From Hyphomonadaceae bacterium (GTDB taxonomy: Bacteria; Pseudomonadota; Alphaproteobacteria; Caulobacterales; Hyphomonadaceae): a stretch of DNA of 34,151 nucleotides. Below, piece by piece: positions 22,171-24,984 of this stretch. A program made the translations under genes and the position numbers. The notes beneath the pieces were generated by a model. It was given only the letters and a program-made list of their open reading frames with translations, was not told the origin of the DNA and made no database searches. Each line of letters opens with the position of its first letter. The stretch's first letter is position 1. The stretch lies in contig JAIXVM010000077.1 in the NCBI GenBank assembly GCA_027482995.1, positions 1 to 34,151 on the forward strand, given 5' to 3'.

Positions 22171-22763
22171 TGCGGCAACACCTTCCGGACACGGAGATAA
22201 TCCAGCAGCGGAAGCAGCGGCAGGCCGAGGATCGAGAAGTAATCGCCTTCGATGCTGGAGAAAAGCTGCGCGCCGACTCCCTCCAACTGGTAAGCGCCAA
22301 CAGTGGACAGGAGGCTATCGCCGCACTGCTCCATGTAGGCCTCGATGAATTCAGGTGTCAGAGGCCGCATCGTCAGGCGCGGGCGCGCGAGATGCCGCCA
22401 GACGGGGCGACCGTCCTCACACACGACGATCGCGGTTTCGAGCGTATGGCTCTTGCCGGAGAGCCGGGTGAGATGACTGCGGGCCTCGGCCAGGTCTGCC
22501 GGTTTGTCGAAGGCCTCGTTGCCGAGCGCCAGCATCTGGTCGCCGCCGATGACGAGGCCGCCGCGCGCCGAGGACACACGCACGGCTTTCAGCTCCGCGA
22601 GCTGCATGGCCTGGTCGCGAACCGGGACGCCTTCGGCCCGCAGACTTGTGCGGTACGAAGCTTCATCGACATTCGGCGCCACGCTATCGGCGGCCACGCC
22701 GGCCGCGGCGAGGAGTGCGCGCCGACTGGCGCTGCCCGAAGCGAGCGTGACAGCAAGGCTCAC
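22167..22763 (-). CDS. maf: Maf family nucleotide pyrophosphatase
   Basis: LASGSASRRALLAAAGV...VIGGDQMLALGNEAFDKPADLAEARSHLTRLSGKSHTLETAIVV...EAYMEQCGDSLLSTVGAYQLEGVGAQLFSSIEGDYFSILGLPLLPLLDYLR. Confidence 0.92.
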   Translation of the reverse strand: MSLAVTLASGSASRRALLAAAGVAADSVAPNVDEASYRTSLRAEGVPVRDQAMQLAELKAVRVSSARGGLVIGGDQMLALGNEAFDKPADLAEARSHLTRLSGKSHTLETAIVVCEDGRPVWRHLARPRLTMRPLTPEFIEAYMEQCGDSLLSTVGAYQLEGVGAQLFSSIEGDYFSILGLPLLPLLDYLRVRKVLPQ

Positions 22764-23602
22764 GTCTGGCCCCGGCGTTCAGAGAGAAGGTTGAGGATGG
22801 CGGCGGCGGTCTCTTCGACCGAGCGGCGGGAGACATCGATGGTTTTCCACTTGTTGCGCTGGAACAGGCGGTTCGCCTGCGTGATCTCTTCGCGCACCGC
22901 TTCTTCGTCGGCATAGTCGCCGGCATCGTCCTGGTTCAGCGACATCAGCCGCTGTCGCCGGATCTGCACGAGGCGCTCGGCTGAAATCTTGAGGCCCACG
23001 ACAAGCGGGCCCTTGTCGCCGAGGCGTTCCAGAAAGTCGGGCAGCGGGGCGCCGGGGACCAGCGGAATATTGCCCGCGCGCACCTTGCGGTTGGCGAGAT
23101 AGACGCAGGTGGGTGTCTTCGACGTGCGGCTGACGCCGAGCAGGATGACATCGGCGCCGACCAGGCTTTCCATGTTCTGCCCATCATCATGCGCGAGCGT
23201 AAAGTTGATCGCTTCCATCCGCTCGAAATAATCCTCGTCCATCGCGTGCTGGCCAGCGACACGGTTGTTGGCGGCGACGCCCAGATGGCGGCTGAGCATG
23301 GCGATCGAGGGATCGAGAACCGGTAGTGTCGGGATGCTCCGCTCACGGCAGAAGGCTTCCAGCCGGCCGCGCAGCGCCGCGTCGGAGATCGTATACCAGA
23401 CGACGCCGGGCGCCGCCTCGATCTCGCGGGTGACGCGCTCAAGCTGGCGTTCGGAGCGGACGAGGTAGTAATTGTGCTCGAGCGGCTGGACATTCTCGAA
23501 CTGGGCGCAGGCTGCCCGCTGGACGGCGTTCAGCGTTTCGCCCGTCGAGTCGGAGACGAGGTGCACATTGAAGTAGATGGCGGGCCGGACCGGGCGTGTC
23601 AT
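22760..23602 (-). CDS. Pyruvate,phosphate dikinase/PEP synthase regulatory protein (DUF299/UPF0085 kinase-pyrophosphorylase)
   Basis: FNVHLVSDSTGETLNAVQRAACAQF...AINFTLAHDDGQNMESLVGADVILLGVSRTSKTPTCVYLANRKVRAGNIPLVPGAPLP; start ATG 23602. Confidence 0.93.
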   Translation of the reverse strand: MTRPVRPAIYFNVHLVSDSTGETLNAVQRAACAQFENVQPLEHNYYLVRSERQLERVTREIEAAPGVVWYTISDAALRGRLEAFCRERSIPTLPVLDPSIAMLSRHLGVAANNRVAGQHAMDEDYFERMEAINFTLAHDDGQNMESLVGADVILLGVSRTSKTPTCVYLANRKVRAGNIPLVPGAPLPDFLERLGDKGPLVVGLKISAERLVQIRRQRLMSLNQDDAGDYADEEAVREEITQANRLFQRNKWKTIDVSRRSVEETAAAILNLLSERRGQT

Positions 23603-23637: not shown

Positions 23638-23688
23638 AGGGTTGTGACTCGCCTGTGAATTGCGGCCCGCTCCACAAGGAGTCACACG

Positions 23689-23697
23689 GTTTCCACA
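23689..23697 (+). promoter_or_regulatory. DnaA-box-like site
   Basis: GTTTCCACA, one mismatch (position 1) to TTWTNCACA. Confidence 0.5.
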
Positions 23698-23759
23698 GGG
23701 ATACGAATTCGACTCCTGGCTGATCCCTGCTTGTTCCGCGGTGTGACTCGGCGGCGCCG

Positions 23760-23775
23760 TTAACCTCGCGTTAAC
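23760..23775 (+). promoter_or_regulatory. CtrA-binding-type site
   Basis: TTAACCTCGCGTTAAC matches TTAA-N7-TTAAC exactly. Confidence 0.75.
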
Positions 23776-23833
23776 CATTGATCGAAGTGAGGAATCCTCC
23801 AGCGCGTCCGAATGCCCCAAGCTGTGACTCGGT

Positions 23834-23842
23834 TGTGGATTT
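23834..23842 (-). promoter_or_regulatory. DnaA-box-like site, weak
   Basis: Minus strand AAATCCACA, two mismatches to TTATCCACA. Confidence 0.35.
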
Positions 23843-23946
23843 TGGTGGACAAGCCCGGATAAACCGGGCTCTCCAAGAATCCAGCAGCATCATAAGTATA
23901 AGCGCCCTCACGGGCTCATTTGAATGGGATTGAAAGGGGTAGAGCG

Positions 23947-24984
23947 ATGGCCGGCGCCAGCGGGAAGAAATTCTTGGACGTGCTTGCAGGACAGGCAGTC
24001 TCCCCTCCCCCGGTCTGGATGATGCGCCAGGCGGGCCGCCATCTTCCGGAATATCTGGAAACACGGTCGCAGGCGCGGGACTTTCTCGACTTCTGCTACA
24101 CACCGTCCCTCGCTTCCGAAGCTACGCTCCAGCCGGTGCGCCGCTATGGCATGGACGCTGCCATCCTGTTCGCGGACATCCTGCTGATCCTCGATGCGAT
24201 GGGTCTCGATGTCGCTTTCGAAAAGGGTGAAGGCCCGCTGGTGGAGGTGATCCACAAGGCTTCCGATCTCGCCCGGGTTCAGCCCCAAGCTGCCGCGGAC
24301 AAGCTTTCCCCCGTGTATGAGACCGTGTCGCGCGTGAAGGCGCAGCTGCCGGCCTCGTGCGCGTTGATCGGGTTTGCCGGATCGCCTTGGACAGTGACGC
24401 TGTATGCGGTCGAAGGCCGGGGCAAGACGGACAAGTCGATGGCCTGGCGCTGGGCGCACGGGCGGCCGGATGAGCTGGCCGCGGCCATGGATCTGGTGAC
24501 GGAAGCGACCGCCCATTATCTTGCCCGGCAGGTTGAGGCTGGCGCCGACGCGCTGATGCTGTTCGACAGCTGGGCCGAGGGCCTGCCAGACAATATCTTC
24601 CACGAAGTGATCATTGCCCCCACCCAAAAGCTGGTCGCCCGGCTTCGGGAGATGGGCGTGACGGTGCCGATCATCGGTTTCCCGCGCGGCGCAGGCGTGA
24701 TGGTGCCGGACTATGTGAAGGCCACGGGTGTGACCGGTGTGGGCCTCGATACCGCCGCTTCACCAGCCTTCATCAATGCCTCCCTGCCCAAGAACTTCCC
24801 GGTTCAGGGTCACCTCGATCCCCTGCTGCTGATCGAGGGGGGCGCGCGTCTTGACGCACGTGTCGACCAAATTCTGGACGCCTACCGCGGCCGGCCCCAT
24901 ATCTTCAATCTCGGGCACGGGGTTCGCCCCGAAACGCCGATCGCGAATGTCGAGCGCGTGCTGAACCGGATTCGAAAGGGATAA
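23947..24984 (+). CDS. hemE: Uroporphyrinogen decarboxylase
   Basis: PPVWMMRQAGRHLPEYLETR...GFAGSPWTVTLYAVEGRG...DSWAEGLPDNIF...GHGVRPETPIANVERVL; start ATG 23947. Confidence 0.96.
   Translation: MAGASGKKFLDVLAGQAVSPPPVWMMRQAGRHLPEYLETRSQARDFLDFCYTPSLASEATLQPVRRYGMDAAILFADILLILDAMGLDVAFEKGEGPLVEVIHKASDLARVQPQAAADKLSPVYETVSRVKAQLPASCALIGFAGSPWTVTLYAVEGRGKTDKSMAWRWAHGRPDELAAAMDLVTEATAHYLARQVEAGADALMLFDSWAEGLPDNIFHEVIIAPTQKLVARLREMGVTVPIIGFPRGAGVMVPDYVKATGVTGVGLDTAASPAFINASLPKNFPVQGHLDPLLLIEGGARLDARVDQILDAYRGRPHIFNLGHGVRPETPIANVERVLNRIRKG

Follow-up and report, generated by a model that had tools for sequence, protein, structure and literature searches.

At the replication origin oriC of Escherichia coli, the initiator DnaA nucleates at strong boxes, and once replication has taken place SeqA blocks the weak boxes, which overlap GATC (PMC4285127). 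In Vibrio cholerae, the binding of the initiator RctB to its iterons depends on methylation (PMC6090056). In Caulobacter crescentus, the methylase CcrM is made only late in the cell cycle, and the GANTC sites close to the origin are hemimethylated in about 80% of the cells of a mixed population (PMC3973325). The Caulobacter origin, Cori, contains G-boxes (TGATCCACA) and weak DnaA boxes, the W-box being TCCCCA (PMC4285127), together with CtrA and GANTC sites, and lies on the hemE side. DnaA boxes of the TCAC type have a precedent as well (PMC5043019), the boxes of the epsilonproteobacteria having the core TTCAC, e.g., TCATTCACN in Helicobacter pylori.

The repeat analysed here, from the ppsR–hemE gap of the budding genus Hyphomonas, resembles each of these systems in part. 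As with the low-affinity sites R5, I2, I3, tau1 and tau2 of E. coli oriC (Dam/SeqA), putative weak initiator sites overlap adenine-methylation sites that are enriched at the origin, near stronger boxes; by sequence, the four sites S1–S4 fit this SeqA-type plan, with a presumed role as initiator sites. In Hyphomonas, however, the methylase is the cell-cycle-limited CcrM (GANTC), and the overlapping sites are strictly fused into one 8-mer, in which the middle base is free. The likeness to Cori includes the hemE-side location, the weak boxes and the CtrA and GANTC sites, but the Hyphomonas boxes read GANTCACA, with the methylation site built into the box, a form that a single change would derive from the G-box (TGATCCACA to TGATTCACA). 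The G-box itself is absent from the regions upstream of hemE in all Hyphomonas scanned; a perfect copy occurs inside hemE, at 24248-24256 of the window. The 12-mer and 11-mer iterons of V. cholerae are likewise initiator repeats containing a methylation site, but they belong to another initiator (RctB), to Dam/GATC and to a secondary chromosome. The epsilonproteobacterial boxes share the T at position 5 preceding CAC and show that a DnaA box may end in TCACA; their position 4 is a fixed T and they contain no methylation site, whereas position 4 is free in Hyphomonas. Neither TGTGANTC nor GANTCACA was found mentioned in the open-access papers searched.

The window, i.e., the whole stretch of 34,151 nucleotides that was analysed, is assigned to the genus Hyphomonas by a hemE search together with one shared contig (L029 = L031, Hyphomonas johnsonii MHS-2). 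As reported by the initial annotation, an exact-match scan of the window locates TGTGACTC four times within 188 bp of the gap between ppsR (DUF299) and hemE, three times on the plus strand and once on the minus strand. The features of the gap are as follows:

22760..23602, minus strand: ppsR (DUF299; Pfam Kinase-PPPase), left border (PF03618, E 3.5e-88; open reading frame, start set at ATG 23602).
23643..23650, plus strand: S1, TGTGACTC; TGTG invariant in 39 aligned Hyphomonas, GANTC lost in one clade of 6 genomes.
23654..23662, plus strand: S1 partner box TGTGAATTG, 11 bp downstream; TGTGGATAG or similar in relatives.
23679..23686, minus strand: S2, TGTGACTC, reading GAGTCACA on the plus strand; 7 of 8 columns invariant, the N column taking all four letters.
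23690..23697, minus strand: S2 partner box, TTTCCACA on the plus and TGTGGAAA on the minus strand, 11 bp away; itself TGTGANTC in some relatives.
23711..23715, no strand assigned: extra GANTC site (GACTC) between S2 and S3, kept in most relatives.
23742..23749, plus strand: S3, TGTGACTC, unpaired, directly before the CtrA-type site (exact match and alignment).
23760..23774, no strand assigned: CtrA-type site TTAA-N7-TTAA, exact in 31 of 41 relatives and in 40 of 41 with a one-letter variant allowed.
23823..23830, plus strand: S4, TGTGACTC (exact match and alignment).
23834..23842, plus strand: S4 partner box TGTGGATTT (AAATCCACA reversed), 11 bp downstream.
23890..23902, plus strand: AT-rich element TCATAAGTATAAG, candidate unwinding element, kept in 38 of 41 Hyphomonas.
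23904..23915, no strand assigned: short inverted repeat GCCCTCACGGGC (GCCC-N4-GGGC) adjoining the AT-rich element, in 39 of 41 Hyphomonas.
23947..24984, plus strand: hemE, right border (Pfam URO-D, E 1.4e-105).

The AT-rich element upstream of hemE (23890-23902) has a trio-like look and its AT part is common to the sister genera, three of which have the form TAATAATNATAAG (19 of 23 genomes).

No fifth exact copy of TGTGACTC occurs in the whole window, and dinucleotide shuffles contain 0.54 copies on average, none of them reaching four. For four copies in 188 bp at a predefined location, the Poisson probability is about 4e-16 at the genomic background rate and 3e-12 at the shuffle rate. In the organism's own assembly, TGTGACTC is found 9 times and TGTGANTC 47 times in 3,003,553 bases, with no second cluster of either outside the ppsR–hemE gap, and the 8-mer is accordingly not equally dense elsewhere in these 3.0 Mb. 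This assembly is a fragmented draft (335 contigs, 84.6% complete), a state that would favour a chance repeat or an assembly artefact, but such an origin is barely credible in view of the identical positions occupied in 41 Hyphomonas genomes, single-contig ones included, and of the single cluster in the genome itself.

Alignment of the orthologous gaps of the Hyphomonas genomes confirms that the 8-mer is kept in close relatives; with its density, this makes both of the refutation tests named by the initial annotation passed. The repeat unit first proposed, TGTGACTC, is real as a repeat but too narrow as a conserved unit, which is TGTGANTC, with a free sixth letter and fixed positions. Altogether, the 41 Hyphomonas genomes contain 171 TGTGANTC sites, each genome having between 3 and 5; the N letter is C in 105 of the sites, G in 31, T in 20 and A in 15. 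As the relatives share descent, the counts are not independent, and those of sites and genomes overstate independence. Column conservation was assessed in 39 aligned Hyphomonas, the changes being counted by the Fitch method on a hemE tree of 29 genomes. Against a region mean of 2.9 changes per column, the sixteen TGTG columns of S1–S4 display no change at all, the four N columns 5, 5, 5 and 3 changes (18 in total), and the twelve A/T/C columns 7 changes, 5 of them at S1, where the clade devoid of GANTC retains TGTG. The TGTG core is fixed and the methylation site is gained and lost more readily. Judged from these substitutions, the pattern shows evolutionary protection of both halves, the CACA core and GANTC.

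On the opposite strand, TGTGANTC reads GANTCACA, i.e., a CACA core preceded by GANT. The initial annotation had noticed a CACA core that departs from the DnaA box in the first half, as well as a GACTC/GAGTC methylation site embedded in each copy, and both observations hold in the alignment: TGTG/CACA is invariant, and GANTC is largely kept while its middle base drifts. The first half fails to match the consensus TTWTNCACA, since position 4 of GANTCACA is free and position 5 is a fixed T. This arrangement is the reverse of that in TTWTNCACA, and is the pattern of GANTC laid over a CACA core. As the T at position 4 is contacted by DnaA in the classical box and is replaced here by a free N, binding would be weak at best. 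The mismatch lowers the case for a classical box, not that for a weak box, because weak sites may deviate.

Depending on the site, the 8-mers are single or paired. At exactly 11 bp from each of S1, S2 and S4, the same strand bears a further TGTG, mostly as TGTGGA; S3 has no partner at this distance. Among 303 same-strand TGTG pairs spaced 4-40 bp apart, 116 lie at exactly 11 bp, the next commonest spacing being 23 bp (26 pairs). The spacing of 11 bp also leads in the sister genera, but not in other families. All 42 Hyphomonas genomes contain the combination TGTGANTC-N3-TGTG. Of its 102 matches, about 90 are located at the origin and 11 in other places, with 1 left unplaced, compared to 7 matches for the reversed control. 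In some species, the S2 partner too has turned into TGTGANTC. Helical phasing with neighbouring DnaA-like boxes is thus found at S1, S2 and S4.

The gap that contains these pairs is at or near the chromosome origin. Marker-frequency analysis located the origin of H. neptunium near hemE, in a genome where the GC skew and the positions of dnaA and of the DnaA sites gave no clear origin (PMC6650430), and CtrA ChIP in the same species gave a site and signal by the origin (PMC7200025). GC skew offers no origin mark in the window either. In a single-contig Hyphomonas relative (3,705,021 bp), the first base falls inside the ppsR–hemE gap. Another Hyphomonas, G026, displays in its region L273 (reverse complement, ~898-1395) some 416 extra bases between S3 and S4, including an open reading frame of 132 amino acids with a DUF983 domain; this insert replaces the CtrA-site region and leaves S1-S3, S4 and the AT-rich element intact. 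The region L272 contains all four sites.

TGTGA is the core of the CRP half-site, and repeats lying between two divergent genes, with S1 at 41 bp from the ppsR start, might be read as promoter elements for ppsR and hemE, such as half-sites of a CRP-type regulator, rather than as origin elements. The gap nevertheless contains no TGTGA-N6-TCACA palindrome and its geometry is that of 11-bp direct pairs; added to the mapped origin of H. neptunium near hemE and to the DnaA-like boxes that fill the same slots in sister genera, this makes a promoter function very improbable.

The content of these slots was compared across the family, using genus labels (g14–g22) as assigned by the tool. In g15, the S1 slot holds TGTGGA pairs, and the S4 slot holds TATGGA, TGGGGA or TGAGGA ahead of TGTGGA; TGGGGA, the reversed W-box (PMC4285127), gives this one sister genus a further likeness to Caulobacter. 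Outside Hyphomonas, TGTGANTC amounts to two copies in the nearest genus, g18, at most one in g21, and none or one in the gaps of the rest of the family and of the sampled other families of the order. The TGTGANTC cluster is specific to Hyphomonas. Since the sister-genus slots hold DnaA-like boxes and few TGTGANTC, the GANTC form appears to have arisen stepwise in slots of DnaA-like boxes. In the genera g17 and g22 (L127, L142-L150), most origin gaps contain 9-13 GANTC per 400 bp and at most one TGTGANTC; they include GGACTCGACTC or similar doublets, another form of GANTC enrichment.

In the window as a whole, GANTC is more than twofold depleted (70 sites versus 168 expected from shuffles), and against this depletion 8 sites are gathered in 335 bp at the origin (P 3e-7). 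Of 42 Hyphomonas genomes, 41 encode a CcrM-type RAMA domain, and the organism's own genome encodes a CcrM-type methylase with the motif DPPYNLQLGG. The boxes might be weak DnaA boxes whose GANTC serves something else, as part of a general enrichment in CcrM sites at the origin that would mark replication status, ease strand opening or time the transcription of hemE or ppsR. GANTC sites not joined to TGTG are indeed conserved too (GAATC/GACTC between S2 and S3), and in several sister genera 7-13 GANTC per 400 bp are accompanied by no more than one TGTGANTC. However, an independent enrichment would not predict fusion with TGTG, and this fusion recurs at four slots, extends in several lineages to the S2 partner and has taken the place of TGTGGA in slots known from sister genera; we therefore regard general enrichment as doubtful, though deserving consideration.

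With respect to the protein that may read the sites, DnaA was identified in 41 of the 42 Hyphomonas genomes, and its domain IV retains the RDHTT helix, which reads CACA. In an alignment whose register was verified against 1J1V, the Hyphomonas protein has K at the position of E. coli R399. An altered specificity of DnaA due to this residue was considered and rejected: the same K occurs in M. tuberculosis DnaA (3PVP) and in sister genera that lack the motif, and so explains nothing by itself. Stand-alone frames of DnaA domain IV, mostly of 114-146 amino acids, are encoded in most, not all, Hyphomonas and in sister genera (e.g., G015:C1:752044-752229), and might possibly act as competitors for DnaA boxes. 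As readers of the motif they were discarded, being absent from Hyphomonas that keep it, e.g., G023 and G034.

This absence also bears on the proposal that TGTGANTC is bound by a different protein, either GcrA or a reader of methylated or hemimethylated GANTC, which would compete with DnaA at the TGTGGA neighbours; the initial annotation had likewise considered a different regulator of the initiator. A competitor overlapping a DnaA array would need fixed phasing too, and GcrA, which is present family-wide, binds methylated GANTC (PMC3667746). Its family-wide distribution nevertheless contrasts with a genus-specific motif, and its extended motif YGAKTCK (PMC7987155) fits 14 of the 171 TGTGANTC sites, S1–S4 of the window not being among them, so that the class of GcrA-activated GANTC was rejected for TGTGANTC. 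Overall, a site for another protein looks unlikely.

We consider it somewhat probable that TGTGANTC is a weak DnaA box with an embedded CcrM site (GANTC), rendering initiation sensitive to the methylation state. The initial suggestion, a weak DnaA site peculiar to the lineage and linked to methylation, has the best, if partial, support of the explanations considered, from the restriction to Hyphomonas, the DnaA-like slots of the sister genera, the 11-bp phasing and the retention of GANTC. Putative occupancy of the slots by DnaA is well supported on these comparative grounds; that DnaA binds the boxes, that CcrM methylates these sites in Hyphomonas and that methylation changes the binding are three steps that we infer. 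At three of the four sites, TGTGANTC forms a head-to-tail pair with a further box, usually TGTGGA, at a distance of one helical turn (11 bp). Nucleation of DnaA would take place at the TGTGGA boxes and be followed by extension to the TGTGANTC boxes, with the methyl marks situated within the extension sites. If Hyphomonas behaves like Caulobacter, S1–S4 would carry methyl groups on both strands up to initiation and then remain hemimethylated for the greater part of the cycle, until the late synthesis of CcrM. Such a shift could lower (or raise) DnaA occupancy and gate the extension, and together with CtrA could help to limit the origin to one firing per cycle. Counting against a necessary role, C. 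crescentus devoid of ccrM still replicates efficiently (PMC3973325). A further-reaching idea may be put forward tentatively: DnaA would read origin methylation directly, without a SeqA-like protein, most weak boxes having been turned into CcrM sites and forming an epigenetic once-per-cycle switch. To our knowledge, no SeqA-like reader of hemimethylated GANTC has been described.

The control of initiation by CcrM methylation is a long-standing question in alphaproteobacteria. In the Hyphomonas origin, the methylation site is part of a putative initiator box, which renders the question testable by changes that break GANTC and keep TGTG: the change from TGTGACTC to TGTGACAC does so, and TGTGAATC keeps both. 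The pair TGTGANTC-N3-TGTG offers a simple signature, present in every Hyphomonas genome examined and nearly always at the origin, and boxes bearing GANTC may explain why the prediction of the H. neptunium origin from DnaA boxes failed.
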